From a virus: a DNA stretch of 64,000 nt. A program made the translations under genes and the position numbers. Under the pieces are notes generated by a model that was not told where the DNA came from, did no database searches, and was given only the letters and a program-made list of their open reading frames with translations. The stretch covers positions 23,774 through 87,773 of IMG/VR virus record IMGVR_UViG_3300042922_000827; one strand, 5' to 3'. Shown here piece after piece: positions 9,291 to 62,837 of the stretch; positions within the stretch are counted from its first letter, which is position 1; the number at the start of each line of letters is the position of its first letter.

Positions 9291-10139
9291 TTATAATTTA
9301 AAACAAAAATTCATTACTTCATTTTGAATATGACGTTCTACTGGAACTACGATTCTATCATAATTCTTATCAACTAAAGTAACAGATTTGCCATCTTCTG
9401 ATAATAGAATGCTTTCATAGAAAGTATCAAAATTATTAACGATGGTATTAAGATTAGCAGACTCTGCCATAATATAATCTCTTACAGATGCGTTAGTGAT
9501 AGGAGTTATAATTTGGAATCCTTCTTCAACTAATTGAATATTGCCATGTTCTTCTACCATCTTAGGAATATAGATATATTTATTAGCCTGCGCGGAAGCT
9601 CCCTCGCTAATAATTTTAGTAGTATATGCTTTAGGATGTGATGGGTAATAAACACGGTCATATGTAACTATCTTAAGATTACGCACATATGCTTTACCTG
9701 CATTTTGTATAATAGTACCTAATGCTCTAAGAGAAAATGATGGTTTAGCCCCATCTTTAAGATCATCGTTAAATGATCTTCCTAAATCATTATTAGTTCC
9801 ACGGAAGTTTGCTTTTACAAGATTGCCTTCCATCCACAACTTAGTATACCAAACTTGTTCCATGAATGGGTCGACTTTCTGTTGTCTTGCTAAGTCATTA
9901 GCCGATGGATGACCAGCTTCACCTTTAAAATTTCCACTAGTTACCATTTCTTGCTGCTTAGCACAATGAATTTCTTTATATAGATCATCATGGGCATAGC
10001 ATCGTTTATTGCGATTTTCTTCCTCGGCTTCTTGAATTATACCTTCGGCAATAACGAAATCTCTGTTTTGATTCACTATATTAAATTCTACGTCTTTAGC
10101 AGACGATTCACATATAATATATGCTAACGTAGTATTCAT
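9291..10139 (-). CDS. Prohead maturation protease (T4 gp21/S80-like)
   Basis: 282 aa. Conserved landmarks of the phage prohead serine protease are visible: His77 in GEAGHPS, a Ser in KPSFSLRALG (134 or 136), and the segment VRNLKIVTYDRVYYPSHPK (about 152-170) that usually follows the active-site Ser. The enzyme cuts scaffold, capsid and internal proteins during head maturation, and T4 gp21 cuts after hydrophobic-x-Glu. Matching sites are seen in many proteins here (for example ALNE, AISE, VIRE). AGGAGG precedes the ATG. No early promoter is present, as expected for a late gene. Confidence 0.8.
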   Translation of the reverse strand: MNTTLAYIICESSAKDVEFNIVNQNRDFVIAEGIIQEAEEENRNKRCYAHDDLYKEIHCAKQQEMVTSGNFKGEAGHPSANDLARQQKVDPFMEQVWYTKLWMEGNLVKANFRGTNNDLGRSFNDDLKDGAKPSFSLRALGTIIQNAGKAYVRNLKIVTYDRVYYPSHPKAYTTKIISEGASAQANKYIYIPKMVEEHGNIQLVEEGFQIITPITNASVRDYIMAESANLNTIVNNFDTFYESILLSEDGKSVTLVDKNYDRIVVPVERHIQNEVMNFCFKL

Positions 10140-16911: not shown

Positions 16912-18669
16912 TTATTCTGGGTCGATATAAACATTATACTCTGGAGCTTCGCACAAATATTGATTTGTGCTAAACACCAATCCAATGATCTTAGATATAG
17001 CATCTAAAATAACTTGATCCGATTTGATAGAGCTTAATACATTTCCATCAAATTCTTCAGTTCTGATATTGAATGGTGTTTCATTCATAATGCACCGCAA
17101 TGTTAAATTAATAGCGTTGGCTTTATTACCACCACAATATGCTAAGTATAGTGAAGAGATAAGCTCGGCATATGCACTATTGAGTACAGCATAAATATTA
17201 AACTTTTCATTAGATTTCATTTTTTCAAAATCTTCTTCGGTATAATCTTTTACTGACTCTTTTTCTAATTGATTGAATGCTCGGAACCCTTCAAAATTAG
17301 CACCAAATCCATATCCGTCTTTTGCAGCACTACGGCAATTTAATACAGCATCTTCTACAAGATCTTTTAATGCATCTCGATCAGTCATAGAAATACCACC
17401 AACTAAGTAATCAACCATATTGGCTTTGAGAGAATTGATTCTCCTTTTAAGGATGCCAATTTTAGTAATTTCTTCTTTTGTTGATTCGTAGTTTTCCAGC
17501 ATCGAATAAAGACCATTAATAAGCTCGTTATACACGTCGCTTTTAGTTCCGTCTTCATTATGCATAAGCTTAGGATTGACAACTTTAGTTTTCATATTAT
17601 CCGATTCGATAAGTTCGGCTTCTCCGGCAAATTCATGAAGATTTTGTGGAGTTGCTGCGAGACCGGCAGAAATATCAATTTGCTGTAACTTAGGATCAAT
17701 ATATTTCTTAATCAATTTAGCACCACTAAGGCGAGCCAAGTCTACAAGAAGATCCCCCTTAAATATATTTGTTACAATAGAAAATGGAGGTCTATTTTCG
17801 GCTGGCATAGATGCTAATTGCCCAATTAAAGAATCTACCATAGCATCCATATCATTTCCTAATTCTGGGCAGAAAACAACTGTTGGGACTAATTTGGCTC
17901 CAGCTGCATGTCCTTCTTCAGATGATGGAAAGAAAACATTTTGGTATATAATTTGATCTAAGAAAGCCCGCATTTCTGGAGTATTAATTTCTCCATCGAA
18001 TACATAAACTTTAGCATTACGAATAGAAGAAATTTTTCTTGAGCTATCTGTAATAAATGCTGGATCAGAATACCCGCTATCGAAAGTTAATCCATCATAA
18101 ACTTTCTGAACATTATGTATAGAATTAGAAACTCCAACGTCTATAAATACATCCATACCATGCTCGGCATAAATATTTTTAATATTTGCTGCCACCTCAG
18201 TATTTCCATTTGTAGCGATCATAGCAATACGATAAATATCATCGATTGTCGTTTCTTTCTTATTTGCTTCTATAATTTTGATTGCTTCGCCTACAGCATT
18301 CTGTAGCTGGCTGATCAATTCATTGTCACTAATAGCATATTTTTTGCTCGCTTCTACAAGCGCATTAAAAATAATAGCAGAAAGTATAATAGCAGAAGTA
18401 GTACCATCGCCCACTTCAACTACGATTCTTCTAGTAATATCCTCTAGATCGTCACGCATCGTATATTCAATAGGTCTATTAAATTTAATAGATCCTAAAA
18501 TAGTATGACCATCTTTAGAATATTTTGTTAAAGCGCCTTTTTGTCTAATAGCAGTAACAGATCCTGTTGGACCGAAAGAGTTTATTAATGAATTTGAAAT
18601 GATTTCTAGAGCTTTCTGCTGTGCTTCTCTTACCTTGTGTTTTGGAACGATATTTGTATAAACTGTCAT
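16912..18669 (-). CDS. Phage chaperonin, GroEL/Cpn60-like
   Basis: 585 aa, slightly longer than bacterial GroEL (about 545). Equatorial-domain ATP motifs are clear: GPTGSVTAI (33-41), SKDGHTIL (51-58, Asp53) and GDGTTS (87-92). A late VEDAVLNCRSAAKDG segment matches the region holding the GroEL catalytic Asp398. The apical part is divergent, and the C-terminus lacks the Gly-Gly-Met tail. It should be an ATP-driven folding chamber. AR9-like phages are known to encode a chaperonin. Its start overlaps the stop of the 217-aa gene by four bases, so the two are translationally coupled. No GroES-like gene is seen. Confidence 0.9.
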   Translation of the reverse strand: MTVYTNIVPKHKVREAQQKALEIISNSLINSFGPTGSVTAIRQKGALTKYSKDGHTILGSIKFNRPIEYTMRDDLEDITRRIVVEVGDGTTSAIILSAIIFNALVEASKKYAISDNELISQLQNAVGEAIKIIEANKKETTIDDIYRIAMIATNGNTEVAANIKNIYAEHGMDVFIDVGVSNSIHNVQKVYDGLTFDSGYSDPAFITDSSRKISSIRNAKVYVFDGEINTPEMRAFLDQIIYQNVFFPSSEEGHAAGAKLVPTVVFCPELGNDMDAMVDSLIGQLASMPAENRPPFSIVTNIFKGDLLVDLARLSGAKLIKKYIDPKLQQIDISAGLAATPQNLHEFAGEAELIESDNMKTKVVNPKLMHNEDGTKSDVYNELINGLYSMLENYESTKEEITKIGILKRRINSLKANMVDYLVGGISMTDRDALKDLVEDAVLNCRSAAKDGYGFGANFEGFRAFNQLEKESVKDYTEEDFEKMKSNEKFNIYAVLNSAYAELISSLYLAYCGGNKANAINLTLRCIMNETPFNIRTEEFDGNVLSSIKSDQVILDAISKIIGLVFSTNQYLCEAPEYNVYIDPE

Positions 18670-23477: not shown

Positions 23478-24662
23478 TCATTTCTTATTTTTGCCCAATT
23501 CTTCTAAAATATTGGTAAGAGTTGAGAAGATTGCCATGTGCCGTTGTAGTATTATTTGATTCTCCACGTAGCTTCTGGTGTCATAAGACTGAATTAGAGA
23601 GTCTCTTACGAGGTCTTTTAACTCTAAAAGCTTCCTCGTAACAAATTCGATGGGTCTGATATTGTCTTCGACTCTGTTTACTTTAGAGAGACGATCTATA
23701 CATTTCTCTATATTTGCATAGAGAGAAACAAACTGAGTTTTTAATTCTGTTTGTTTAATTTCTATTTGTTCTGGAGACATATTAGAGAACAATTCTGTCT
23801 CCATTTGTTTTATCTCGTCGTCTCCTTCGCCTCCACCTTGAACATCGTCTCCAGTACCTGTTCCATCATCTCCATCCCGCTCATCTCCGTAGTTAGGGGT
23901 AGAATCATCGTCACCTTCACCGGTTCCGCCATCTACATTTGGGTCGCTGCCTGTACCATCATCACCATCTGTTCCTCCTCCATCTACAGTTCCATCATCT
24001 CCACCTGGGTTGTCGTCGCCATAGTTAGGGGTTAGATCGTCGTCACCTCCACCAGTTCCACCATCTGTATTTGGATCATCGTTATTATCTAACCCAGAAT
24101 CCAAATTCCCACCAGTATTATCATCTCCTGCTCCATTATCTCCAGGAGTTCCTGCATTTGTAGTATTATCGTTTCCATCGTCTAGATTATCATCACCGTA
24201 GTTAGGAGTTAAATCATCATCACCTTCTTCTCCTGTAGTAGTATCATCAGGATTGGAAGGGGCTCCATCTGTTCCGACTACTTCATTTGCATCTGGATTG
24301 TCTGTAGTATAGTTGGGAGTTGTATCATCTTGGCTGTCTTCTCCTCCATCTATATGCTCTGTACCTGTAGGAGCAGGAGTATTTTGGTTATCTATATTAT
24401 CATTTGCGCCATCTTGATCATCATCAGTATAGTTAGCTGTGTCGTTTTTATCATCTTCTGTATCTAACGATTTTCCATTAGCAATGATTTCTTCATTTAC
24501 ACTGCTTCTATATTCTGGATCTATTCGCATTCTTTCTTTAATGGAACGAAGTTTACTTAACCATCTTTTATCATTTTGCTGTTCAGCTATAGCGATATAT
24601 TTATTCAATAGTGTATCTTTACTATAATCTTCATTCAGTACGAATTTATTAAAATCAAACAC
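23478..24662 (-). CDS. Asp/Gly-rich repeat protein with virion-type ends
   Basis: 394 aa, GTG start at 24662 behind GGAGG. N-terminus FVLNEDYSKD has a possible processing site; residues about 18-52 (LLNKYIAIAEQQNDKRWLSK) resemble the C-terminal end of the adjacent 758-aa protein. Residues about 70-280 are very acidic and repetitive, with at least four DDLTPNYGDDN-like units (TPNY). The C-terminal 110 residues are helical. The acidic centre may be a spacer or a nucleoid-mimicking scaffold. It lies next to the capsid gene, so a head protein is the best guess. Confidence 0.6.
   Translation of the reverse strand: MFDFNKFVLNEDYSKDTLLNKYIAIAEQQNDKRWLSKLRSIKERMRIDPEYRSSVNEEIIANGKSLDTEDDKNDTANYTDDDQDGANDNIDNQNTPAPTGTEHIDGGEDSQDDTTPNYTTDNPDANEVVGTDGAPSNPDDTTTGEEGDDDLTPNYGDDNLDDGNDNTTNAGTPGDNGAGDDNTGGNLDSGLDNNDDPNTDGGTGGGDDDLTPNYGDDNPGGDDGTVDGGGTDGDDGTGSDPNVDGGTGEGDDDSTPNYGDERDGDDGTGTGDDVQGGGEGDDEIKQMETELFSNMSPEQIEIKQTELKTQFVSLYANIEKCIDRLSKVNRVEDNIRPIEFVTRKLLELKDLVRDSLIQSYDTRSYVENQIILQRHMAIFSTLTNILEELGKNKK
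23820..24460. repeat. Degenerate in-gene repeats encoding TPNYGDD units
   Basis: Recurrent segments around 23885, 24020, 24195, 24300 and a degenerate one near 24427 encode TPNY/ANY followed by acidic residues. The repeats are imperfect in DNA, suggesting old expansions. Confidence 0.7.
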
Positions 24663-49268: not shown

Positions 49269-49276
49269 TTGAGAAA

Positions 49277-49313
49277 ATATATCCCAGTATACATTTTGTA
49301 TACTGGGATATAT
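49277..49313. terminator. Bidirectional terminator
   Basis: 17-bp perfect stem between convergent genes ending at 49268 and 49319. Confidence 0.9.
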
Positions 49314-49318
49314 TGTGT

Positions 49319-50719
49319 TTATTTTTTAGCAGTTTGTGCTGTAGCTGCGGCTTTAATAGCGTCAACTCCACCTTTAAAATTTGGATTTTGAGCAATAACT
49401 CTTTGATTGAGATCGGCAGTAAGTTTACTCTTTTCATTAGCATCATTAGAGTTTTCAATTTGAGAAATTGTATTTAAAACTTCTTGAGGATTATCTATTT
49501 TAAGAGCTCCTTTATAATTAGATCCAGAATTTGCTACTTGGCTATCGCCTTCTTGACCTACATAAGATCCTACATGCAATCTAACAAGCTTCATATAATC
49601 TTTATAAATTACATGAGCAGAAGTCATTTTAGAAGTAACAACTGCACTAGCTGCTGTATTATACGCACCAATCTTTTTAGTAAGAGTATCAAGATCTGCA
49701 TTAGAATCTGGTTTTACTGGTTGGGTTGACGTTTGAACAGACTGCATATTACTTGACGCTTTTGTGTCTCCGCCAGTAGCACCGGTATTTCCAGCCGCAT
49801 TTGGATCTGGTTTCTTCCCAATAGTCATACCACTATTATGAGAATCATCTTCAGTAAAGTATGAATTCATATAATTTCCTAAAGAATACGACTCTCCAGT
49901 GTACTCCCACTTTTTACTATTAGCATTCATTTTGGCAACTTTGTTGGGTCCAGGAGTTCCAATTGGATTGTCCTGAGATGAGCCCTTTTCTCCAGCCCCA
50001 GCTGTTGGAGTGGTAGTGCCGCCTCCTGCTGTAGGTGTTTGTTGTTGCGGAGGTTGCTGTGCATCTGTTTTTGCTTTTTGAATAGCAGATTGAGCAGCAT
50101 TGAATGTTGTACCAAGAACATTCTTATCTTTTTCAATTGAAGATTTGATCTTCTCAAAATCATGACAAAAGTTATATAGATCAGTCATGTTAAGACTAGT
50201 CATATTAGTAGACTTTTTATCTTCTCCACCTTGAAAATACGCAACAGCAAATCCTGCAAAATCCTTACTAGCATCTTTATATTCTGGGATAAGGACGCCT
50301 TTAAATGAAATATCAGCATCATCAACAGGAACTTTATCCTGCACAGATGTGAATGCTGGGATAGAAGTAGATGTCATTCTATGAATACCTGTAGAGTAGT
50401 CGCGCATTTCAAGATCTACATCTTGTGGTTTCTGATTTAAAATAATATCTTTATATTTTTCAAGATATGCTTTATCAGATGCGATCATTTTGTTAGTAAA
50501 CTCGACAAACTTAGCCCACACACGATTTAAGAATGCAATAAATTTATCCCACAAACTTCTAATCTTATCGCCAACGTCTTCATGTACAGCCCATAATTTT
50601 TGAGAGGCTGTGGATTCGGATAGTCCTACAATGGATTTTACAAATCCATTTATTTTTTCAGTTTCAATAGCAGATTCTACTACAAACTGAAAATATCTAG
50701 CATCTTCAGTGTAATTCAT
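49319..50719 (-). CDS. Tandem internal virion protein paralog 1
   Basis: 466 aa from the ATG at 50719 behind GGAGG, starting two bases past the stop of the next gene upstream. Shares with three neighbours the amphipathic module SLWDKFIAFLNRVWAKFVEF...YLEKYKD (about residues 55-100), preceded by a Glu-containing candidate cut site (VHED). Residues about 200-330 are a Gln/Pro/Gly/Thr-rich linker (QQPPQQQTPTAGGG). Likely packaged inside the head; function unknown. Confidence 0.6.
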   Translation of the reverse strand: MNYTEDARYFQFVVESAIETEKINGFVKSIVGLSESTASQKLWAVHEDVGDKIRSLWDKFIAFLNRVWAKFVEFTNKMIASDKAYLEKYKDIILNQKPQDVDLEMRDYSTGIHRMTSTSIPAFTSVQDKVPVDDADISFKGVLIPEYKDASKDFAGFAVAYFQGGEDKKSTNMTSLNMTDLYNFCHDFEKIKSSIEKDKNVLGTTFNAAQSAIQKAKTDAQQPPQQQTPTAGGGTTTPTAGAGEKGSSQDNPIGTPGPNKVAKMNANSKKWEYTGESYSLGNYMNSYFTEDDSHNSGMTIGKKPDPNAAGNTGATGGDTKASSNMQSVQTSTQPVKPDSNADLDTLTKKIGAYNTAASAVVTSKMTSAHVIYKDYMKLVRLHVGSYVGQEGDSQVANSGSNYKGALKIDNPQEVLNTISQIENSNDANEKSKLTADLNQRVIAQNPNFKGGVDAIKAAATAQTAKK

Positions 50720-50720
50720 A

Positions 50721-51812
50721 TTACTCAACCTCCAATGCATAATCTGGAATATTGAAAAGATCTACAGACTCTTGTTTTGCAAGAATCTTTTTAAATGCTC
50801 CGTATATAACTTTCTTATCTTGGTCGAAACATCCTTTGATAGCATCCAATTTAGCAGAGAACGCCATTAAATGCATATTAGAAATTTCCTGAATCTCTTG
50901 AGATTTTGCTTTCATAAATAAATCATATAAAGCAATTTTGTCTGAAGAGCTGTCGCCGTCAATAAAGTCTCCAATTGACACTTGTGAATTTCCATCAACT
51001 GTTTCCTTTGTTACCTTATCAAGGCGTTTTTGAATACCATTATAAAGCTTTTCCACATTATCAGCATGGCGCTGTGTGGAAGTCTTCATCTTATCATATC
51101 CTGTAAAGAATGCTAAAGCTTCATTCACAATAGCGCTGGTAACTGTTATTTTAGTCTGAGCATGTTCACCGTTGCGGAATACTTTGAATAATTCATTTTT
51201 ATAATCGGTTTGATCGATATTTGATTTGGCATTGATACTTTTCTTTCTAAGTTCATCCAAATAAGAATTTGAACTCCTCTTGTCTAAAAATGCATCATAT
51301 GATTTCTTTAAATCTGCTTGACTCTTAGCATCTCTTCCATCTGTTTTGAAATCAGCGATAGATTTATCGAAATCTTGCAATATATCCAGAGAAGGAATAC
51401 CTTCATCAAATTTAAAATCAAATCCAGAAATATCAAATTCATGCTGAGATGTAAACTTGCCTAATTCTGTTTTATGCTGTTCTATGTACTTATCTCTCAT
51501 AAATAGAGAATTGACTCTCACCCAGAATTTAGCAATAAGCTTTTTGAAAAATGCTACAATCTTTTTAAGAAAAACTTTAATGCCATCGAAGAATTCTGAG
51601 AAAGATTCTCTTATAACAATACTATCATTGCTCGATTCATTAATATTTTTATACAGATTGGCATTTAATAGACCAAGTGACTTGCTTTGTTCTGTTAAAA
51701 AATTCAAAGTCTCAATAAAAAAAGAATCATCATTGTATGAATCAGTACTTTCGACTGTAACAATAGAAGTATGCTCATCCAATAAAGATAATGGACTAAA
51801 TAATTTACTCAT
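50721..51812 (-). CDS. Tandem internal virion protein paralog 2
   Basis: 363 aa. N-terminal about 70 residues, then VIRES (candidate cut) and the shared module FFDGIKVFLKKIVAFFKKLI...YIEQHK. The C-terminal two-thirds are helical and charged (for example DKMKTSTQRHADNVEKLYNG in outline). The most basic and aromatic of the four in its module. Late gene, AGGAGGG start. Confidence 0.6.
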   Translation of the reverse strand: MSKLFSPLSLLDEHTSIVTVESTDSYNDDSFFIETLNFLTEQSKSLGLLNANLYKNINESSNDSIVIRESFSEFFDGIKVFLKKIVAFFKKLIAKFWVRVNSLFMRDKYIEQHKTELGKFTSQHEFDISGFDFKFDEGIPSLDILQDFDKSIADFKTDGRDAKSQADLKKSYDAFLDKRSSNSYLDELRKKSINAKSNIDQTDYKNELFKVFRNGEHAQTKITVTSAIVNEALAFFTGYDKMKTSTQRHADNVEKLYNGIQKRLDKVTKETVDGNSQVSIGDFIDGDSSSDKIALYDLFMKAKSQEIQEISNMHLMAFSAKLDAIKGCFDQDKKVIYGAFKKILAKQESVDLFNIPDYALEVE

Positions 51813-51838
51813 TTAATTCCCTCCTTATATATAATAAA

Positions 51839-51866
51839 TCAGGGAATACCAATTGGTATTCCCTGA
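51839..51866 (-). terminator. Hairpin terminator
   Basis: Perfect 28-base palindrome after paralog 3. Confidence 0.85.
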
Positions 51867-51877
51867 TAATATTTTGA

Positions 51878-52969
51878 TTACCGGAATGTAACGGAGCCTA
51901 AGAAATCATCGCCTTTAGCTCCTTCTCCATAATGTTGCCACCCTTCGGATTCTTTTACAGAAACGCGAACAACTTGAGCAGCAAATTGTTTAGCCTGACT
52001 AACGCGGTTAGCAATAGCAGTCATTTGAGCACCAAGGAATGTTTGCTTTGCAGCCAATACTCCTTTAAATGCAGTAACCATAACTGGGTAAGCAGAAGTC
52101 TTCTTGCCAGCATCAGCTTTTTCGCCATCAGAAGCGCTATTTCCAGCTTGAGTGTCAATAGTGCCCTTTTGTGCTTTATCGCATAATTTAACAAGCTCAC
52201 TAACATCTTTTTCAAGCTGTTTGTAAGAATCGCTAACAGCTTTGCTTGCTTTATCAGATCCAAGAATGCCGCTGATATAAGCAAAGTCAACGCCGCTTTG
52301 TTCTGATTTAGCACTTTCTTTATCGCGGAAATATTGGAATAATTCTTTATTGAACTCGCTTGCAGTTAAAGAACTAGCTCCAACTAAACTACCGCGATAA
52401 CCTTCAATTCCTTCTTCAAGTTTTTCACGAGCTCCGACAATCTTCTCAGCATCGGATGCAGAAAGACTTGCTGGATTTCCAACACTTGCGCCACCAAGCA
52501 TTTTACCGGCAGCTGCAACAACGTCAGCGCCAACTGTGGAATTCTTTTCATCGCAATGAGTAAAGTGATATCCGACAAATTTTGTCTTTTCTTTATCAAC
52601 TTTACCAAATTTTTCGGCAAGATCTCTTTTGTATTTATCTAAGAAGCTTTTGCCGCTTTTGAATTGAGCATCGAATCTGCTCATAAAGCTATTGAAGATG
52701 CCTTTAAGTTTTGCAACAAGAGACATAAACATTTTCTTTACTTTTTCCCAGAAGCTGCCAATAGCACCTTCAGTATAAACACACTCTCCGGATTCCCTAA
52801 GGGCAGAACTTTCGTGAATGCCGATAGCTTTCATAAGAGAGTTATAATTACTTTCACCTTCCGCAACAGCGGCAAGTACTGCTTCATGATAATTTTCTAT
52901 ATATGTTGGAGTCGCTTCGACTTGAAGATCTACATTACTAGTCGATGCCCCTTCTTCAAAAAATGCCAT
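51878..52969 (-). CDS. Tandem internal virion protein paralog 3
   Basis: 363 aa. Candidate cut sites ALRES and YTEG (about 54-68) stand directly before the module GAIGSFWEKVKKMFMSLVAK...FLDKYKRDL. This copy and paralog 4 are the closest pair (EGA-(I/L)-(G/S)-SFWEK-(V/I)-K). GC-richer codon use suggests abundant product. Followed by a strong terminator. Confidence 0.65.
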   Translation of the reverse strand: MAFFEEGASTSNVDLQVEATPTYIENYHEAVLAAVAEGESNYNSLMKAIGIHESSALRESGECVYTEGAIGSFWEKVKKMFMSLVAKLKGIFNSFMSRFDAQFKSGKSFLDKYKRDLAEKFGKVDKEKTKFVGYHFTHCDEKNSTVGADVVAAAGKMLGGASVGNPASLSASDAEKIVGAREKLEEGIEGYRGSLVGASSLTASEFNKELFQYFRDKESAKSEQSGVDFAYISGILGSDKASKAVSDSYKQLEKDVSELVKLCDKAQKGTIDTQAGNSASDGEKADAGKKTSAYPVMVTAFKGVLAAKQTFLGAQMTAIANRVSQAKQFAAQVVRVSVKESEGWQHYGEGAKGDDFLGSVTFR

Positions 52970-52991
52970 TTTAAATTTCCTCCTTTTTATT

Positions 52992-54098
52992 TTAGCACAC
53001 TGCTTCTAGAGCAGATAATACTTCATATTCAGCAGCTTCTTGTTCAATTTCCAATAATGAAGTATCTTCATGTTTCTTTGGATTGAATGCAACAATAGCA
53101 GCCGCGATTCTACGAGATTGAGCAACAGCAAATTTAATTTCAGTCAATGCGGCACTGTTTGCAATATTAAGAGTTTCTTGCATAGCAGAAACTTGTTTTT
53201 GCATACCAGCAGCACGTTTTTGATAATTAGTTCCAGCATCAAATTTATTTTTATGTTCTGGAGCTTTCCCATCCATCCCTTTGCCACCGAAACGATTAGC
53301 ATAAGCATCGTGAGTATCATTCTTACCATCCACAGCATTATCTACCGTTTGTTTCTGGAATTTTTCAACCTGCTTTAAAGTTGCAGCTAATCCTTTTTCT
53401 TGAGAAGTTGCCATCTTTTTAATAGCAGCAATAGGATCGCTTTTGCCGGAAATGTAAGAAATCAACTCTCCAACATCACCCTTAACTTCATAATCTTTTT
53501 CTTCATCTTCGAAGCAATTGCTATGAAATTCCTTACGGAATTCTTTAGCTGATGCTTTTGTTGATGGGTGAGAAATTGCACCAAGATAAGATTCGACCAA
53601 TTCAGAGTGCTCAACGTCACCAAGATCAGATTTTAAAGCAACTTTAGCAATGTCCACGCTAATGGAAGCGATGTTAAGTTTAGGTTTTGCATATCTAACT
53701 TTCAAGCCGCTTAAATCTTTACCGGAGAAGATTTCCTTTTTGTGCTTATTATAGAAAGCAGTACCGTCTTTATTCATCCAAGCTTCAAACTTGGCGATAA
53801 ACCCACCAAAAATACTTTTAACCTTTGCGATAATATTTTTGATAAGAGTTTTGATCTTTTCCCAGAAGCTGCTAAGAGCACCTTCTTGTACTGTACAAAG
53901 TTCTTCTTCGCTGGCTCCTTCACGGATCATGCGGTTTTCTTTAATATCAGTTTTTAAAGCAGCGGTGAAAATAGCCATGTCATTTTGAAAACCTTCAACC
54001 ATTGCTAATTGAGCACCGATAGCTCCACTGTATCCTTCGGCAGCTTCTACATTCACTGTCCCAAGGCTACCGATTTCGTTGTCACTATAAAAACCCAT
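52992..54098 (-). CDS. Tandem internal virion protein paralog 4
   Basis: 368 aa from the ATG at 54098 behind AAGGAGG. Candidate cut sites MIREG and VQEG (about 58-76) precede the module GALSSFWEKIKTLIKNIIAK...FYNKHKKEI. A central DGKNDTHDAYANRFGGKG segment is disordered. It is 22 bases upstream of paralog 3 and forms one transcript with it. Confidence 0.65.
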   Translation of the reverse strand: MGFYSDNEIGSLGTVNVEAAEGYSGAIGAQLAMVEGFQNDMAIFTAALKTDIKENRMIREGASEEELCTVQEGALSSFWEKIKTLIKNIIAKVKSIFGGFIAKFEAWMNKDGTAFYNKHKKEIFSGKDLSGLKVRYAKPKLNIASISVDIAKVALKSDLGDVEHSELVESYLGAISHPSTKASAKEFRKEFHSNCFEDEEKDYEVKGDVGELISYISGKSDPIAAIKKMATSQEKGLAATLKQVEKFQKQTVDNAVDGKNDTHDAYANRFGGKGMDGKAPEHKNKFDAGTNYQKRAAGMQKQVSAMQETLNIANSAALTEIKFAVAQSRRIAAAIVAFNPKKHEDTSLLEIEQEAAEYEVLSALEAVC

Positions 54099-54210: not shown

Positions 54211-54241
54211 AAGTATAATATCAAGATACTATATTATACTT
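54211..54241 (-). terminator. Hairpin terminator
   Basis: 11-bp AT-rich stem overlapping the stop of the baseplate wedge gene, T-run after it on the minus strand. Confidence 0.65.
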
Positions 54242-56821
54242 TATATCTGGTTCGTTATTTGCTAAAGTATTTACATTTAAAAATTCTGGAACGGTATTAG
54301 ACTCTGCAAATGAATCTGTATTTTGTTTGTATATACTTTGTTTGACTGGTCCGTAGCCGTTTAGATCTATAAACTTAAAATATACTAATTGAGATCTGTA
54401 TTTAGTGGTGATCACGGTTATAAGATTAGGCATATGTAGATCATTGATATTATTAATATCTTCTAAATATGCTTTGATATCAGTGTTGATATCATCTAAT
54501 ATATAACTATCCTGATCCATAACAAATTTAACTTCAAATGTAAGGCTCATATTTACCCTATTAAGTAAAGATTCATTATCGATATTATATAACTTAGATG
54601 GTCCATAAGTATTAAAGAATTTAAAGTCTACACCAAATGAATCTTCTAAGAATATTAAACAAGACTCAATCCAGATACGTCTATAATCTACAGATTTTAT
54701 AAAAGATTTTACTCTATCCTCTGTATCCAAATAGGTATATCTAACTAGTGGCATTTTTCTTATATAATAATCATACGTTGAATCTAGATTCTTCTTTAAA
54801 GTAATATATGATGTGACGATATTAGTATAGTCATAGAATAAATCTATACCAGAATTAAGAATTCCATAAATGTTACACAGAGACCATCCATCTAATCCAG
54901 GAACTATTTTATCTATATCTTTTTCTCTACCATATTCATTATCAAATTTAGCAAGCATAAATAGTTTAAAATCTATATTAGATGGCAAGTATGCCGTTAG
55001 TTCTGTATCTGTATTTACATCTTTCATTCCATGCTCTATAGCTATTCTACCATTTTTATCAATGATGTCATTGGTGGTAAATTCTATTTGAAAGGTGTAA
55101 ACAAACTCTTTATCGTCATAGTCTGTTAGAGTTGCAGTCGTATATCTATATGCTACACCATTCAAATATACAACTCCAAATACTTTTATATTACACTCAA
55201 TAATATTACCATTATCGTCTGTATTAATAAGACCAAAATCGCTATTAATATTTTGAGTCATCTCGATAGTGAGTTTATATTTATCCCTATCAGTATAAAA
55301 TAATCTCTTGCACTTTATCTCAGTAGCTACAAACTGTAATTGAGAGTTGCTATTTATATATTCAAATGTAAGAGCTCTTACATAATCTAGAATATTTAAA
55401 TAATAAGAGACAAAGAATGGAGATTTATTCACTACAGTTAAAAATGGATTCATATATAAAAATCCACTCTTATCATATGCTGCTATTTCTTCAGTTGTAA
55501 GCATTGGGATTCCGACAGTTTTATCACTATTTCTATACATGATAGCCCCAGGCTGCATTACATAATTAACCGGATTTATACTCTGATACATAGACCTGCT
55601 AATTTCTACGTCTAGAGTATTAGTAGGAACTATATTGCCTTCTGATTTTAGAAGAAGGTAAGAATAATATAAACGTTCTATTTGATTGTGGACCTTTTCC
55701 AAAAAGTATAATCGGCAATCTGCTGAGTTTATAGAATTAAAATAATTATTAATATCAGTATACGTCGATATTAATCCTCTTGATAGAGCTTCTTTAGGAA
55801 TAGCAGTTTTTAAATCTTCTATAGATTTCTTGTCAGCCCCAAATTCTGAATCTGATATTGGTTTCGTGACAATAAATATATTATCATACGAATAATTATC
55901 AGATGTAAGATCTTGTACAATATTATCTGTGTATGAAAAATTACATTCAGATCCTTTTGTAGTATAAACGCTAATTGTCACTTCACAATTTGCTCTTGGC
56001 TGGTAAGAATCCCTATTAAACTTAATACGTATAGTTTTAGCGTTTATATACATATAGTTACAAAATTCTTTATTGCTAGAATAATCATATAATCCATCAT
56101 AGACAGAATTTAAATAATGTATAGTATCTCCCTCTTTAACTTCAACTGTAAAGTATGCTAATTGATCGTCAAAGGTAAAATTAATAATTTTGTTTTCCAA
56201 TGGATTATTTACAATGATCTTTTTGTATATTATATTACGACTAACTTGTCTGATAGTGGTATTAATCATAATAAGATTAGTGCCAGTCATTGTTATATTG
56301 CCAAGCGTTGGTAAATATGGATTTACAATATCAGTTATTTCGTTACGATCATTGATATCATACATAGCTGTATATACATAAGTTCCATTTGGAAGTAAAT
56401 TACGTTCTATAATAATATCAAAATCTATATGATATTCATACTTACCAACCTTAATAGGAAAATCTTTGTCTAATATAAATTGATTGTCCTTCATATTAGC
56501 CAGTAAATTAACTTCTGGTATACAAATAAATACATTCATATTGGCTGGCAGTGCTCGTATTTTATTTATTCCAAGAGACAAAGCATGAGCTATTATATTA
56601 CGCTCAAATTTAGCTTTTGTTGGTATGGCTTCATTAGAATATTCAGAAGCCATTCTAGTAGAATTTTCAATTATATTTGTATGCATTTCTGATAGATACC
56701 CATATATACCCATAGTAAGAGTATCTTCTGGAATATCTATATACTTAGCCTTTATATTATCTACAAAAGACGCTATCTGATATATATCGGTAGATGTTGT
56801 TGTAGAATTCGAATCAGCCAT
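54221..56821 (-). CDS. Large baseplate wedge protein
   Basis: 866 aa. Opening text IPEDTLTMGIYGYLSEMHTN and YSNEAIPTKAKFERNIIAHA is typical of the T4 gp6/gpJ-like wedge proteins of large myophages. The remaining chain is beta-rich (NIIYKKIIVNNPLENKIINF, and others) with a helical end. It joins the wedges round the hub. Four residues after it starts the 334-aa tail protein upstream, so the two are one unit. Confidence 0.7.
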   Translation of the reverse strand: MADSNSTTTSTDIYQIASFVDNIKAKYIDIPEDTLTMGIYGYLSEMHTNIIENSTRMASEYSNEAIPTKAKFERNIIAHALSLGINKIRALPANMNVFICIPEVNLLANMKDNQFILDKDFPIKVGKYEYHIDFDIIIERNLLPNGTYVYTAMYDINDRNEITDIVNPYLPTLGNITMTGTNLIMINTTIRQVSRNIIYKKIIVNNPLENKIINFTFDDQLAYFTVEVKEGDTIHYLNSVYDGLYDYSSNKEFCNYMYINAKTIRIKFNRDSYQPRANCEVTISVYTTKGSECNFSYTDNIVQDLTSDNYSYDNIFIVTKPISDSEFGADKKSIEDLKTAIPKEALSRGLISTYTDINNYFNSINSADCRLYFLEKVHNQIERLYYSYLLLKSEGNIVPTNTLDVEISRSMYQSINPVNYVMQPGAIMYRNSDKTVGIPMLTTEEIAAYDKSGFLYMNPFLTVVNKSPFFVSYYLNILDYVRALTFEYINSNSQLQFVATEIKCKRLFYTDRDKYKLTIEMTQNINSDFGLINTDDNGNIIECNIKVFGVVYLNGVAYRYTTATLTDYDDKEFVYTFQIEFTTNDIIDKNGRIAIEHGMKDVNTDTELTAYLPSNIDFKLFMLAKFDNEYGREKDIDKIVPGLDGWSLCNIYGILNSGIDLFYDYTNIVTSYITLKKNLDSTYDYYIRKMPLVRYTYLDTEDRVKSFIKSVDYRRIWIESCLIFLEDSFGVDFKFFNTYGPSKLYNIDNESLLNRVNMSLTFEVKFVMDQDSYILDDINTDIKAYLEDINNINDLHMPNLITVITTKYRSQLVYFKFIDLNGYGPVKQSIYKQNTDSFAESNTVPEFLNVNTLANNEPDIKYNIVS

Positions 56822-56826
56822 TTAAA

Positions 56827-57831
56827 TCACACCCTCCATTTTAATTTATACTGTTGGTATCTACTGAGACTTGTACTCTCTAATGAGATATATGGAACTA
56901 ATACATTCTCTCCACTAACTGCATTAATAGACGAATCATATATAGGAACATTTATTCCAGAATTTTTAGATATACTTGCGAGATAATTAAAATCAGATAT
57001 TGTATTAGGCTGCATATCATCTTGGAAAGTACACTTCCATTGTATAGTAAATCTAAGATGACCATCTGCTGTTAAATCTGAAAAGATTTCTCTTGGTACG
57101 GTTTTCGGATAGCATCCGATCATTTGCGCCCAATGTATAATAGTTTCCCCATCTTCCCCTACTATAAATTTATATATAGTCATCTGATCATGAAGAACTT
57201 TCTTTTGTGTATAATTACGATTAGGTGGGGTCACCTTTCCAATATATTTTCTCTTCTCATATTCATCAAATGCTTTGAACCATGAATATACGTCTAAGTA
57301 TTTATTATCTTCGAACTCTATAGAAAAATCAGCCTCTTCATCTGAACGATCCGAAGCTTTCCTATAAAAAAGTTTAGTTCCATATAGATTAGCTGCTGTC
57401 TCTGCATCATCCACACTAATACTAGATAGGTCTAAATTTGATGTTTTTCTGTTAGATAATATTCTAACAAATGGCGTGGAACCATCTGCACTATATTGTA
57501 AATCTCGTAAAACTGTAGTGTTGTAGCCTCTGCGTTTTAAATCATAAAAAAACGGCACATTTGCTAACTGTGGGTTAAGGGTATATAAATCTCCGTTATT
57601 GAATATATGCAAATCTGGTTTTGTAAAGAATACATATTCTCTCGTACTAGTTACAGCATTATATGGATCTATTCTGGGAAATCTATAAAACACATTAAAT
57701 TGATCTAGATCGTTTCTACTATATATACCATTAGATCTTAAAAATTTTTTATAATCATCTGTAGATATAGTTAGTAATGAATTAAAACTATCATTACGAA
57801 TAGACGAAGTTTTTACAGTATCGTCCGCCAT
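56827..57831 (-). CDS. Baseplate/tail structural protein
   Basis: 334 aa from the ATG at 57831 behind GGAGGG; an in-frame GTG 15 bases upstream lies inside that site. TSTREYVFFTKPDLHIFNNG (about 59-78) and RFTIQWKCTFQDDMQPNTIS are typical of a structural protein that goes with the large wedge protein. Mostly beta. Probably part of the baseplate. Confidence 0.6.
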   Translation of the reverse strand: MADDTVKTSSIRNDSFNSLLTISTDDYKKFLRSNGIYSRNDLDQFNVFYRFPRIDPYNAVTSTREYVFFTKPDLHIFNNGDLYTLNPQLANVPFFYDLKRRGYNTTVLRDLQYSADGSTPFVRILSNRKTSNLDLSSISVDDAETAANLYGTKLFYRKASDRSDEEADFSIEFEDNKYLDVYSWFKAFDEYEKRKYIGKVTPPNRNYTQKKVLHDQMTIYKFIVGEDGETIIHWAQMIGCYPKTVPREIFSDLTADGHLRFTIQWKCTFQDDMQPNTISDFNYLASISKNSGINVPIYDSSINAVSGENVLVPYISLESTSLSRYQQYKLKWRV

Positions 57832-57902
57832 ATTAAATCCCTCCACTCCTCACGTTTAATCTGATGTTGTCATATACTTTGGTAGGCTAAATTTTATTAT
57901 GC

Positions 57903-57921
57903 TTATATATTATATAGGTGA
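57903..57921 (+). promoter_or_regulatory. Early-type phage promoter
   Basis: TTATATATTATA, four bases, TGAC. It lies 26 bases before the GTG start at 57948. Confidence 0.7.
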
Positions 57922-57947
57922 CAACAAAATAGAAAGGTTAACAAATT

Positions 57948-58292
57948 GTGCAAAATCAATTAATATATTTTCCCGAACACAATAGAGTTATATACGAAAG
58001 TATAAAAACTAAAAATTGGGAGGTATATTATATGATACAATGGGGAAATCCAGACATGGCTATTATTAGTCAACATCTCAGAAGGCAAACCAAGAAGGAT
58101 GAATTGTGCGAATCTCAAATTCAGTTGAATCGACAATTAAGAACCTCTTTGACACATGACTCTGAGCGAAATAATAAAGCTATCATTCATAACCATTTTA
58201 ATATAATTATCAATGTTGGTCAGAACACATCTGAAGAGAAAATAACTTCTATTGTTCAACAGTTAACTACTATAGTTAGTCGAGTTAATTGA
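57948..58292 (+). CDS. Hypothetical early protein, 114 aa (alternative start 58032)
   Basis: GTG at 57948 behind AAAGG, directly downstream of the promoter. An in-frame ATG at 58032 has a better GGGAGG site, which would give 86 aa (MIQWGNPDMAIISQHLRRQT...). The middle is rich in Gln/Arg, the end is a beta strand then helix (NIIINVGQNTSEEKITSIVQ). No family recognised. Confidence 0.6.
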   Translation: MQNQLIYFPEHNRVIYESIKTKNWEVYYMIQWGNPDMAIISQHLRRQTKKDELCESQIQLNRQLRTSLTHDSERNNKAIIHNHFNIIINVGQNTSEEKITSIVQQLTTIVSRVN

Positions 58293-58384
58293 TTTACTAG
58301 GTATTTAATTGCACACATTGTAATTTATATAGCCTTTTTATTTTTTGGACATATGAGTAAAAATACATGGGAGGTAATGATATA

Positions 58385-59647
58385 ATGGATAATAATGCAA
58401 CGCATATTCATGAAACTATAATTAGAGATGTAGTTTCAGTAATAAGTGATATCTCATCACAAACAGAACCACTGAAAGGCGTATTTAGCAATAATAGTTT
58501 TAAAAGTATTGCTAAAGGTTCTTCTAATTTAACACTGGTATTTCCTGTATATATGACAGAAAATACTCCAATCGAACCAGGTAGAATGATATGTAAATCA
58601 ATCGAGAGAAAAGCAGTAACGATGCTACAGATGCTCCTTTCTGCAATTTGTATTTCTGATAAGAAAAACGCTGTGGAACATATAAAACAGTTTCATACTA
58701 ACCTAGATAACGATGATGCTTTAACAATTGATGAATTTATTGGCATTGTCGATAAAGTTGCAACGGCAGAATCTTCTGGTATTGATATTATAAATCAAGC
58801 TACGTATGATATGGTTATGGAAGATTTAAGAAACAGTACAAGTCATTGCTTAGATGAAAGCGTAAATCCTAGAAGTGTAAATTCTTATAAAGTGAATACA
58901 GCTATGGCTGATGGTATTATTGTAGAAGCAGATTCTGAAATGGATAGTGGAGCAAATGTTCTTAAAACTGCAATCAGTAACACAAAGGATCAAGTAATTT
59001 CTACCGATATTAAGAAAGCAAATGAATTAGTTCCATCTATGATGGTTATTAAATTTATTAGCGCTATCGATGGTTCCTCCATTCCAACAACAGCTGTTAT
59101 TGGAGTTAAAGCAAAACTTCAATATGTATCATCAACAGATATGATTAATCGCATTGTCATAAAAAATAAAGACAAAAATGGTTTATTTAATTTCTTAAAG
59201 GCTACTACGAGAGAAATTTCTTTCTGGAAAGATTTTGTTTTTGCAGTTGATAGAGCTAAATTAGATGCTTTATCTACAAGTGGAAGAGGGTCTTCTTCTA
59301 AAGACTGGAAATTATTAGAACGTAGAGCTCTTAAAAGTAAAATACGTAGATTTACCGGAATGGTAAACGACGCTAGTGCTATTACAACTTTAATTATTTC
59401 TAAAGAAGAAGCAGAAACTCTTAAGAAAGATTATAGTATTGATGTGAAACGCGCAAGCGTTGTTGCTAATATTATGGATTCATATAACCTTATGGGATTT
59501 GTAGTATGCGATCAAGTATTAGAAAAAGTAGATTTTTTATTTGATGATGGCTCTAATGAATATGAAACAATTTCATTTACACATCTTGAAAGAGAAGAAA
59601 GTGGGAATTATAAAAAAGTAATTAATCTTTTAGCTAAATCTAGATAA
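58385..59647 (+). CDS. Probable virion structural protein, 420 aa
   Basis: ATG at 58385 has GGGAGG well placed; the upstream ATG at 58367 is within that region. Alpha/beta protein with FVFAVDRAKLDALSTSGRGS and a Ser/Asp linker (VNTAMADGIIVEADSEMDSG) carrying hydrophobic-x-Glu sites. It precedes the tail fibre gene by 15 bases. Role not identified. Confidence 0.55.
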   Translation: MDNNATHIHETIIRDVVSVISDISSQTEPLKGVFSNNSFKSIAKGSSNLTLVFPVYMTENTPIEPGRMICKSIERKAVTMLQMLLSAICISDKKNAVEHIKQFHTNLDNDDALTIDEFIGIVDKVATAESSGIDIINQATYDMVMEDLRNSTSHCLDESVNPRSVNSYKVNTAMADGIIVEADSEMDSGANVLKTAISNTKDQVISTDIKKANELVPSMMVIKFISAIDGSSIPTTAVIGVKAKLQYVSSTDMINRIVIKNKDKNGLFNFLKATTREISFWKDFVFAVDRAKLDALSTSGRGSSSKDWKLLERRALKSKIRRFTGMVNDASAITTLIISKEEAETLKKDYSIDVKRASVVANIMDSYNLMGFVVCDQVLEKVDFLFDDGSNEYETISFTHLEREESGNYKKVINLLAKSR

Positions 59648-59662
59648 GGGAGATGATTAGTA

Positions 59663-60835
59663 ATGGCATCTCCAGCAGGATTAACAGTAAAATCTTTAAT
59701 AGCAGATATGGATATAGGAGACTGTATACCGTGTAGATATACAGCTACTTCTGGGACTGTTGGGACGTTCTCTGAATTAGGTACTTCCATAGTAGACGAG
59801 ATACCAATAGCAGGAACTGCTACTCCTGATGGTTTATTCTATTTTATTAAAGTAGATAAAGGTTTATTGATAGCAGATAGAGTAATACAAACAGGAATTA
59901 GTTGGAACGTATTGAATACAGCTAAATATATAGAGGGTATAACGCCACAATCGCAAGATTATAACATTGTGTCTCCTCTAAATATGACAAGTAATAACAC
60001 TCCATCACCATATGTAGTTACTGCAAGTGCAGTAAATGGTTCAGATTATGGATGGAAGGCTTTTGACAATGGGACAATAACCAGATCAATTTGGTATACA
60101 ACTACTGCGGCTCCTTCTGGTGGGCATTGGCTAAAAATATATTTGGGAGAAAAGAAAAAAGTAACTGATCTTTTCTTGGGAAATTTTATAGTATCTGGAG
60201 GATCATATTCTGTAAAAGATTATGAATTATATGGATCTAATAATAATATCGATTTCACGTTGATATTAAAAGGAACACAGTCCAATGCGTCTAGTTATTC
60301 TAGACACAGTTTTGGCGCAGTAGAATATTCATACTATCGCCTAAATATATTAACTAGCTATTACAGTGTATATAATGTTGGTGTAGCTCAGATGGCATTA
60401 GGGTTTACTTCTTCAGCAATAGGAGATAATGTAAAAATACGTTCTTTATCTGGTGGAAATGCTTATCTTGGAACTGATGGTAAGGCTAGTTTAACTGATA
60501 TAGGTATTGGAGCTTGCCCTATTAATAATGAGTGGGATAGATATATAGTAAATGATTCATTAGAAGGAAAGATAACGCCTGGCGATGATATGATATGGAA
60601 TTGGAAAGATACTGTATTTTCTTGGGGTTCTGATACATTAACTAATGGATTTATAAGTGCTGAGAATGGCACTGCTAATAGTTCTTGGAGATCTACTAGA
60701 TGCGATCATCCATCAGTTTCTCATGTAATTGATGCTATGAATGGAATAACATCATCTTATGTAGGTCAATATATAGGTTTTAGACCAGTTTTAGAATATC
60801 CAGATGATAATAGGTGTACAAATGTATGGTATTAA
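59663..60835 (+). CDS. Tail fibre/receptor-binding protein with discoidin (F5/8 C) domain
   Basis: 390 aa. Residues about 1-95 (SLIADMDIGDCIPCRYTATS...GLLIADRVIQTGISWNVLN) and the last about 115 (GFRPVLEYP near the end) are two halves of a module common in Bacillota phage and surface proteins. Between them, about 110-255, is a discoidin-like carbohydrate-binding domain (YGWKAFDNG, SGGHWLKIYLGEKKKVTDLF, VKDYELYGSNNNIDFTLILK, YYRLNIL). It probably binds host wall sugars. Confidence 0.75.
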   Translation: MASPAGLTVKSLIADMDIGDCIPCRYTATSGTVGTFSELGTSIVDEIPIAGTATPDGLFYFIKVDKGLLIADRVIQTGISWNVLNTAKYIEGITPQSQDYNIVSPLNMTSNNTPSPYVVTASAVNGSDYGWKAFDNGTITRSIWYTTTAAPSGGHWLKIYLGEKKKVTDLFLGNFIVSGGSYSVKDYELYGSNNNIDFTLILKGTQSNASSYSRHSFGAVEYSYYRLNILTSYYSVYNVGVAQMALGFTSSAIGDNVKIRSLSGGNAYLGTDGKASLTDIGIGACPINNEWDRYIVNDSLEGKITPGDDMIWNWKDTVFSWGSDTLTNGFISAENGTANSSWRSTRCDHPSVSHVIDAMNGITSSYVGQYIGFRPVLEYPDDNRCTNVWY

Positions 60836-60855
60836 ATATACAGGAGGAAAATAAA

Positions 60856-61863
60856 TTGAAAAGTTATTTTAGAACAGCAGTAAATGAATATATGGATATA
60901 GCCGATGATAAAACTAGAAATGTAGTTTTATCACTTAACGAACAAGATCAAGATAGCGTATTATTATCGTTAACTGGAAAATTATATGAAATGATTGTCG
61001 ACAAGGTAGATGATATAGATTTTGGTGATATTCCAGATACAAAAGGTGATATTACTAAACTTCCATCATATACTAAAATCACATCTAGTATTGATACTCT
61101 TACCGCTATATTAGAACAGTATAAACAATCAACTGAAACTGTTGATACTATTCAAAATGCTTTATCAAATTTGGTAAATCATAAAGAATTATTTAAACGT
61201 GGATATAATGCTAATATTGAAATCATTATGGTTACTTATAGCGAGATTGCTTTAGGTGTTGTTAATAGCATATCATATATGATTGCAGCCACTATCGATT
61301 TTATTAAAAATCCTGGCGATGACGGTTTCAAAATCTCATTAGATAGAACTGGATTGGCAAGAACAAAAGATTCTTTAATCTATTCCAATCTATCTAGATT
61401 TAATGATGCTTGTCGTCAGAATCAATTAGAAAACGCATTTGAGCCTCTTATCAAAGCAAGAGTAAAGAACTTTACAGGAGCTGAAATAGGAATCATTGCT
61501 GGTGGTATTGCCATTGCTGGTATATTGCTTAATATTCTGCCAATCCTTAGAGAAATGACTTTCTTTTTTTATGCAACAAGAACAAGAATTAGCCAGTACT
61601 TTGATCTTCAAGCTGATTTGCTTGAGATGAATGCTAATTCTATACGTATGAATGAAATCGATACGGTTGATGAAAAGAAAAAGGTAATTAAACGCCAGAT
61701 GTCTATTGCTGGTGCGTTCCGTGGCTTGTCAAATAAGATTTGTATTGACCAGACTGGCGCAGAAAAAGATACGCCAAAAGCTATTAAAGCAGAGGATAAA
61801 AAAATGAAAATTGATGATGTTGTTGATACTTTGCCCGATTCAGCAGCACAGTCATTATTCTAA
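60856..61863 (+). CDS. Virion-type protein with hydrophobic segments, 335 aa (TTG start)
   Basis: TTG at 60856 behind GGAGG, clear of the preceding stop. LSLNEQDQ near residue 30 resembles the processing-like motif. Hydrophobic stretches at about 135-150 and 210-235 (GIIAGGIAIAGILLNILPIL) suggest membrane association. The end is charged. Together with the next gene it could be an ejection or internal protein; family not recognised. Confidence 0.55.
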   Translation: MKSYFRTAVNEYMDIADDKTRNVVLSLNEQDQDSVLLSLTGKLYEMIVDKVDDIDFGDIPDTKGDITKLPSYTKITSSIDTLTAILEQYKQSTETVDTIQNALSNLVNHKELFKRGYNANIEIIMVTYSEIALGVVNSISYMIAATIDFIKNPGDDGFKISLDRTGLARTKDSLIYSNLSRFNDACRQNQLENAFEPLIKARVKNFTGAEIGIIAGGIAIAGILLNILPILREMTFFFYATRTRISQYFDLQADLLEMNANSIRMNEIDTVDEKKKVIKRQMSIAGAFRGLSNKICIDQTGAEKDTPKAIKAEDKKMKIDDVVDTLPDSAAQSLF

Positions 61864-61880
61864 GAAAGGATTGATATAAA

Positions 61881-62837
61881 TTGTTTACAGTTGATAAGAT
61901 AACAACACCAGCTCAATTCGCTCTTGAAATGTTAGAGCAAAATAAAACAAATCCATATAATCCTAAATCATACCAAGAACATGCAGAACATATGGAAAGT
62001 AAAAAGCATAGAAATGAAACTGAGTTTTTGTTAGAAGGGGTAGAAAAAAGAAATGAAGCAATGAGAAAATTAAGTAAGTTTTCAGAATCATTGTCTGAAA
62101 ATCTTTTACACGAATGCTTCTGCACTATCTTTGATAAAATTATGGAAGCTGAAAGGTGCACTAAGCACGAAACCGCGATAGGGCATTCTATGATATCTAA
62201 GCTTATTAAAGAAGAAGGAATCTCTAACCTATTAAGGAGATTTGAACACAAAAGCTTAGTACTTTCAGAATTCGCTAGATTCACTGAAAAATATCATAAA
62301 ATTGCTATGGAAGCAGTGCGAGATAAAATCAATATATCTCCAGATGATGATAGCTGTTATGTTTTAGATAAAGAAATTGCTCAAAAATTTATTGATGATG
62401 TTAGCGATTTAGTTCCAGAAAGAACTATTGATGTCATCAGAGATCGTGTAGAAGATGCTATGCAGGAATTTATTGATCAAAATACTGAAAATAAAATTGC
62501 TATTAAAGATATTTATCTTAAAGCAAAAATGGCAGTAGATAAATCTTCTAGCGATGCGGTTAAAGAAGAACATACTATGCGAGCTAAAGGTTTAGCTGCT
62601 AGAGTGTACGAAAAACCAACAAACGTATTTGGAGCTATGGTTAAATGTGTTGGTGAAGCCGTTGTTGCAACAGAAGCTCTTAAAAAAGAATATATGGATG
62701 GAAACAAAATCAAAATGGAGCATCTGTGCAACGATGTAAGAATTATGTATACTGTACTTGAAATGGCTAACACTTTAAATATAGTAAATGTAAATGAAGC
62801 ATATATCAAACAAATAATCATAGATCTAAAAGAATAA
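61881..62837 (+). CDS. Hypothetical helical protein, 318 aa (TTG start)
   Basis: TTG at 61881 behind AAAGGA. Entirely helical and charged, with FLLEG near residue 50 as a possible cut site. It is 17 bases after the previous gene and is followed by a terminator at 62845. Probably a virion protein that goes with the upstream gene. Confidence 0.6.
   Translation: MFTVDKITTPAQFALEMLEQNKTNPYNPKSYQEHAEHMESKKHRNETEFLLEGVEKRNEAMRKLSKFSESLSENLLHECFCTIFDKIMEAERCTKHETAIGHSMISKLIKEEGISNLLRRFEHKSLVLSEFARFTEKYHKIAMEAVRDKINISPDDDSCYVLDKEIAQKFIDDVSDLVPERTIDVIRDRVEDAMQEFIDQNTENKIAIKDIYLKAKMAVDKSSSDAVKEEHTMRAKGLAARVYEKPTNVFGAMVKCVGEAVVATEALKKEYMDGNKIKMEHLCNDVRIMYTVLEMANTLNIVNVNEAYIKQIIIDLKE

Follow-up and report, generated by a model that had tools for sequence, protein, structure and literature searches.

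Four tandem paralogs in a metagenomic giant-phage record as probable precursors of phiKZ/SPN3US-type internal head proteins

The window analysed here is a 64-kb stretch (positions 23,774 to 87,773) of the 87.8-kb IMG/VR virus record IMGVR_UViG_3300042922_000827, which protein similarity places, as a distant member, in the AR9/PBS1/phiR1-37/S6 group of phiKZ-related giant (jumbo) phages. It carries four adjacent genes, p1 to p4 (Table 1), and these very probably encode precursors of internal head proteins of the ejection type, such as those of phiKZ and SPN3US. An original prediction, made from the letters alone, had proposed that they are internal head proteins processed by a protease of the gp21 type, and this proposal is well supported by the presence of such a protease gene, a like cut-site pattern in the capsid protein, the synteny with phiKZ and SPN3US, a fold match to the likely 201phi2-1 members and a homolog found in virions. 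Paralogy, conservation of the site and a linker/helix boundary at the predicted cut were likewise observed or computed. From these we infer the cleavage, location inside the head, copy number and ejection of p1-p4, ejection being argued by analogy from the SPN3US and phiKZ literature only.

The four proteins are true paralogs that form one family by single-sequence as well as profile searches, and the tandem of four adjacent minus-strand copies recognised originally is thus real. p3 and p4 find each other directly (phmmer, E=5e-15), whereas profiles of the ortholog groups link p2 to p3 (1.7e-26), p3 to p4 (2.9e-30), p1 to p3 (3.2e-9) and p1 to p4 (4.8e-11). Cross-group profiles align p2, p3 and p4 almost end to end (e.g., profile positions 14-334 of 374), so that the "different C-terminal payloads" first imagined do not hold for these three full-length homologs. 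Differing remainders are a property mainly of p1, the most diverged paralog, which shares with the others chiefly its N-terminal 100-250 residues, including the propeptide and the amphipathic module; the rest, with a low-complexity middle and conserved C-terminal helices, is mostly its own. The likely start of p1 has a GGAGG upstream and sits directly after the p2 stop. For p4, located downstream of an 866-amino-acid (aa) gene, the better start is residue 10 of the longer frame, where the original prediction had already ended the block; p4 orthologs begin with MGLYSNN.. or MPIYS... Terminator-like hairpins with stems of 13 and 18 pairs lie between p3 and p2 (51838-51867) and after p1 (49276-49314), respectively, which suggests two transcription units, p4-p3 and p2-p1. 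The C-terminus of p3 (about 51878-51950) and its orthologs also end in a similar tail, (N)ES....(F/Y)LG(N/S)V.hI, after a disordered stretch.

Since a scan of viral contigs with the p4 protein alone gave patterns but no confirmed relative, the conserved 866-aa neighbour was used to find relatives, and 26 metagenomic loci were reached, corresponding to about 17 distinct phages once duplicates were removed. This neighbour shares 22-25% identity with proteins of phiR1-37, BpSp, AR9, PBS1, Listeria LPJP1, Staphylococcus S6-like and Fusobacterium phages; the capsid protein of the window matched phiR1-37 only, and megablast of the DNA against phages returned no match. Orthologs of p3 were found in at least 11 related phages and the order of the p2, p3 and p4 orthologs is kept across many relatives. 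The amplification is therefore old rather than recent, individual copies having been retained in so many phages.

Each paralog carries, ahead of the amphipathic module, a hydrophobic-x-Glu segment that we regard as the predicted maturation site (cuts are marked by a slash hereafter). Of 43 homologs, 35 have the pattern [VILMFY]xE[GSA] within the 18 residues that precede the module, compared to a mean of 6.8 and a maximum of 18 in 5,000 shuffles of the local residues; these homologs are related and thus not independent observations, yet their divergence is strong, identity to p3 being typically 11-30%, and the window p1 is counted through an upstream LSE/S match, its main site being followed by Asp. 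The segment noted originally is therefore confirmed. The second motif described with it also exists, although its form had to be corrected to [YF]-x-x-[KQ]-[YH]-K (YLEKYK, YIEQHK, FLDKYK, FYNKHK). Two features had escaped the original prediction: many members harbor a further xE site some 10 residues ahead of the main site, and the most conserved column of the whole family is a Glu located upstream of the cut site (40 of 43 homologs). Counted from the likely starts, the predicted propeptides measure 47 (p1), 69 (p2), 67 (p3) and 72 (p4) residues.

Table 1. Position of the genes and predicted sites in the window (a slash marks a predicted cut).
Feature	Position	Strand	Basis or remark
p1	49319..50740	-	466 aa from likely start ATG 50719; 473 aa in the listed frame
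p2	50721..51812	-	363 aa paralog
p3	51878..52969	-	363 aa paralog; homolog of AR9 BI022_gp215 and BpSp gp272
p4	52992..54098	-	368 aa from likely start 54098; 377 aa from 54125; first gene of block
p1 predicted maturation site Glu54 (WAVHE/DVGDKIRSLW)	50579..50581	-	Invariant Glu in p1-group alignment
p2 predicted maturation site Glu69 (IVIRE/SFSEFFDGIK)	51606..51608	-	Alignment, site count
p3 predicted maturation site Glu67 (CVYTE/GAIGSFWEKVK)	52769..52771	-	Alignment, site count, model
p4 predicted maturation site Glu81 (TVQE/GALSSFWEKIK)	53883..53885	-	Homolog alignment, site count
p4 conserved upstream Glu44	53994..53996	-	40/43 homologs
p3 upstream Glu37	52859..52861	-	Equivalent of p4 Glu44
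p2 upstream Glu41	51690..51692	-	Equivalent of p4 Glu44
p1 upstream Glu22	50675..50677	-	Equivalent of p4 Glu44
Prohead core serine protease, Peptidase_S77 (T4 gp21 family)	9291..10139	-	PF03420 E=1.9e-11, 44.3 bits vs cut-off 27
Major capsid protein, 609 aa	21529..23358	-	phrog_20655 E=1.7e-17; predicted cut KAISE103/NAPLGAFNP
866-aa conserved neighbour	54221..56821	-	Homolog of AR9 BI022_gp211 and phiR1-37 g207; positional counterpart of phiKZ gp87, SPN3US gp48
339-aa virion gene	56827..57846	-	Homolog of phiKZ gp88 (E=4.3e-10), SPN3US gp49 (E=4.2e-5)
426-aa virion gene	58367..59647	+	Homolog of phiKZ gp89 (E=1.3e-8, annotated structural head protein), AR9 BI022_gp213
349-aa virion gene	60814..61863	+	AR9 BI022_gp214 homolog; positional counterpart of phiKZ gp90, SPN3US gp51

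The AlphaFold model of p3, based on 30 sequences (predicted local distance difference test, pLDDT, 75; predicted template modelling score, pTM, 0.71), is almost wholly helical. After residues 1-25, of very low confidence, a helix (27-59) containing E37 is followed by a low-confidence coil, likely a disordered linker (60-67), and by a long helix (68-121), so that in the model the predicted cut E67/G68 falls on the exact linker/helix boundary and the mature helix would begin at the next residue. Because E37 sits within a helix, the region of the conserved upstream Glu may represent a docking or targeting element of the propeptide rather than a first cut site. The precursors would thus consist of an N-terminal propeptide of about 47-72 residues with a helix carrying the almost invariant Glu, a flexible linker with one or two hydrophobic-x-Glu/Gly, Ser or Ala sites, and a long amphipathic helical module that would start the mature protein ahead of a mostly helical body. 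The propeptide would carry the protein into the prohead core and be taken off by the gp21-family protease of the phage, DNA would then be packaged around the mature helical proteins, and these would exit with the DNA at infection.

A prohead protease is indeed encoded in the window, as well as in 14 of 16 related records (PF03420), and it is the presumed cutter of p1-p4. From sequence comparison, the capsid protein appears to be another of its substrates, with a site of the same type, given that the predicted capsid cut KAISE103/N is aligned with the annotated mature N terminus of the phiR1-37 capsid protein (Ser87, after VMLQE). All 15 distinct related capsid sequences, window included, present [IVLM]xE at the aligned position, the Glu being taken by eye from the aligned block as the automatic alignment was mostly one residue off. 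The PBS1 capsid protein is listed with two masses, 58.9 and 50 kDa (PMC5646251). Similarly, the annotation of phiR1-37 g199 (structural protein sp24 precursor) places the mature N terminus at residue 56, following SALTE55/E, and this protein resembles the window family by a propeptide of about 55 residues followed by an amphipathic region, although the family profile misses it and the conserved block is not adjacent to it. The GenBank note of g199 gives Asp56 as mature N terminus, whereas residue 56 of the sequence is Glu. The AR9/phiR1-37 branch therefore seems to use a hydrophobic-x-Glu cut rule, unlike the A-x-E rule of SPN3US (PMC10052503).

One homolog of the family was found in virions. 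Profile searches identified AR9 BI022_gp215 (E=1.5e-15), annotated as virion structural protein, and BpSp gp272 (E=2.9e-12) as members, and Gp272 was detected in BpSp virions by mass spectrometry with 11 peptides and 31% coverage (PMC4870245). S6_1230 also matches the family profile, while AR9 gp216, BpSp gp273 and S6_1240 share its layout by eye; the three phages present the same gene neighbourhood as the window family with fewer copies. The "g215" of the AR9 paper was left unused as evidence, its numbering being apparently shifted by one relative to RefSeq (GroEL is g228 there and gp227 in the record). It is hardly credible that p1-p4 are non-virion paralogs, such as early host-takeover factors, with a Glu motif due to chance: the virion data admittedly come from a homolog and the window phage is known here from genes alone, but the motif enrichment lies far above the shuffles, the synteny with virion genes is seen in about 20 loci, and a homolog was recovered from BpSp virions. 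We also consider it unlikely that p1-p4 are of the core or scaffold type, which gives the prohead its shape and is mostly broken down and expelled from the maturing head, as with T4 gp22, gp67 and gp68. Such a role would agree with the almost entirely helical fold, with the presence of several xE sites among residues 1-80 and with the remark of the SPN3US authors that giant phages have no confirmed gp22-like scaffold (PMC5694885). The conserved sites, however, cluster ahead of the mature module, Gp272 was recovered from mature virions, and the counterparts in SPN3US and 201phi2-1 are retained in the virion.

The relation of p1-p4 to known internal head proteins was assessed with the members of PF12699 (phiKZ_IP), i.e., phiKZ gp93, gp94, gp95, gp162 and gp163 and SPN3US gp53 and gp54, together with 201phi2-1 gp155-157. 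The mature starts of SPN3US gp54 and gp53 mapped by mass spectrometry, (E)SLWDDIK and (E)GWKETLKDLFER (PMC10052503), resemble E/GALSSFWEKIK of p4 and E/GAIGSFWEKVK of p3. Since single-pair hhalign comparisons with the phiKZ/SPN3US alignment gave probabilities of 11-85%, which are not interpretable on their own, profile alignments were ranked against 100 phiKZ and SPN3US open reading frames (ORFs). The whole-family profile placed six of the seven PF12699 proteins among the top eight, and a profile restricted to the p2-p4 groups ranked the same six first to sixth; the p3 ortholog group alone gave a less clean ranking. In SPN3US gp53 and gp54 the aligned stretch lies at or just past the mapped cut. 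Moreover, more members touched PF12699 than any other Pfam family (7 of the 30 at E<0.1, the lowest value being 4.2e-5). A Foldseek search against viral models with p3 returned 12 matches below 0.001, of which the named ones were two AR9 proteins, one 489-aa protein of 201phi2-1 and uncharacterised metagenomic myovirus proteins; a 387-aa 201phi2-1 protein followed at 0.006. These lengths are those of 201phi2-1 gp157 and gp156, annotated as virion paralogs identified by mass spectrometry (UniProt entries were assigned to genes by length and order). A fold search in the PDB yielded only generic helical bundles, none below E=0.001, and a second structure model of p1 was of too poor quality for a fold search.

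Several observations weigh against an internal-head role. Profile-profile scores taken singly are weak, with probabilities below 20%, and no member reaches the PF12699 gathering cut-off of 27 bits, the best score being 25.7 (G010) and that of the window record 21.5; the link to this family is therefore inferred. The p1 model is of low confidence, with a helix from residue 56. The strict motif is absent from the p2-type proteins of loci L018 and L007, some L017 ORFs, L003_3121, the L004 p4-type protein and the AR9 and BpSp members, which lack a strict Gly, Ser or Ala after Glu. Finally, bubblegrams of PBS1 virions gave no phiKZ-like inner-body signal (PMC5646251). As AR9, which has a family member, is listed under one species with PBS1, a phiKZ-like organised inner body is not implied by the presence of these proteins.

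The gene neighbourhood agrees with the internal-head assignment, as p1-p4 are encoded beside a gp87-gp90 block, like the internal head proteins of PF12699. In phiKZ, SPN3US and 201phi2-1, the internal head paralogs are found a few genes after gp89, gp50 and gp151, respectively, on the same strand, and they likewise follow in all window relatives showing the block. A location of p1-p4 in the tail or baseplate, with an N-terminal Glu motif of structural value only, is highly improbable: SPN3US gp53 and gp54 are head proteins since they are present in tailless particles (PMC10052503), the motif matches the capsid cut site and the protease acts in head assembly, although the next genes past the block in relatives include proteins of about 1,800-1,900 aa at the tape-measure position of AR9. 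The PHROG labels, "head and packaging, virion structural protein", are generic enough to leave room for a tail protein and were rejected as evidence of location.

The window differs from every relative showing the block by an inversion of the four-gene segment 866-339|426-349 (54221-61863) relative to both flanks. Elsewhere the paralogs come after the 349-type gene, whereas in the window they come after the 866-aa gene and a 318-aa gene (61881-62837) stands on the opposite side. The borders of the segment showed no inverted repeats, and the inversion could be an assembly artefact. The protein inserted between the 426- and 349-aa genes (59663-60835, plus strand; 390 aa) carries an F5/8 type C (galactose-binding-like) domain and has no homolog in the related loci by phmmer. 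The window also encodes a GroEL-type chaperonin (16912-18669, minus strand; phrog_5725, E=1.9e-52), as do AR9, BpSp, S6 and LPJP1.

Some relatives harbor p2-type and p1-type regions joined in a single ORF of 706-829 aa, in loci L016 and L012 and apparently in L006 and L010. The 789-aa ORF of L016 presents both regions and two modules (72-122 and 414-455); in that of L012 (829 aa), the matches are p2-type over the first half, and the second half holds one p1-type match and a module. L006 (787 aa) combines a p2-type first half with an end that is p1-like by eye, and L010 (706 aa) a p1-type second half with a first half that bears the motif by eye. In L009 (832 aa), p1 is matched in the second half and the first half looks unrelated. 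A full cut site directly precedes the second module in L016 (HALNE/GVIGDKF) and L012 (LYITE/GLISSAK), a weaker one in L010 and none in L006. We tentatively propose that such ORFs may encode head polyproteins that the prohead protease would split into two internal proteins of equal stoichiometry; we found no description of a polyprotein strategy for phage heads in the literature.

The parallel originally drawn with the internal proteins of T4 holds as an analogy of working. Those proteins also carry an N-terminal targeting sequence that is removed after an xE motif by gp21 and are retained in the head, as predicted here for p1-p4. No similarity in sequence was found, a tblastn search with p3 in 50,697 phage records giving no match at E<=1, and the capsid targeting sequences of T4 measure 10-20 residues (PMC5694885) compared to the longer propeptides, of about 47-72 residues, predicted here. 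The phiKZ and SPN3US internal proteins would thus be the right reference, with T4 as an analogy only. Extending proteins of this type to the AR9/phiR1-37 branch, where we found no such annotation, provides a concrete predicted rule for cutting after hydrophobic-x-Glu, which the phiR1-37 capsid annotation follows and which is distinct from A-x-Glu in SPN3US. Moreover, with PBS1 showing no phiKZ-like inner body and AR9 possessing a family member, this branch can test whether such proteins, or their number, build the inner body. Like phiKZ_IP, whose members vary from 2 to 7 among phages (PMC5694885), the family would consist of tandem paralogous virion proteins at the same place beside gp88/gp89-type genes, with a long propeptide, an amphipathic helical module that starts at the cut, mapped in SPN3US and predicted here, and a gp21-family protease. 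It differs from phiKZ_IP by scores under the Pfam cut-off, by fused two-domain versions in relatives, and by a predicted cut at hydrophobic-x-E followed by Gly, Ser or Ala, compared to A-x-E in SPN3US and an S-x-E type in phiKZ.

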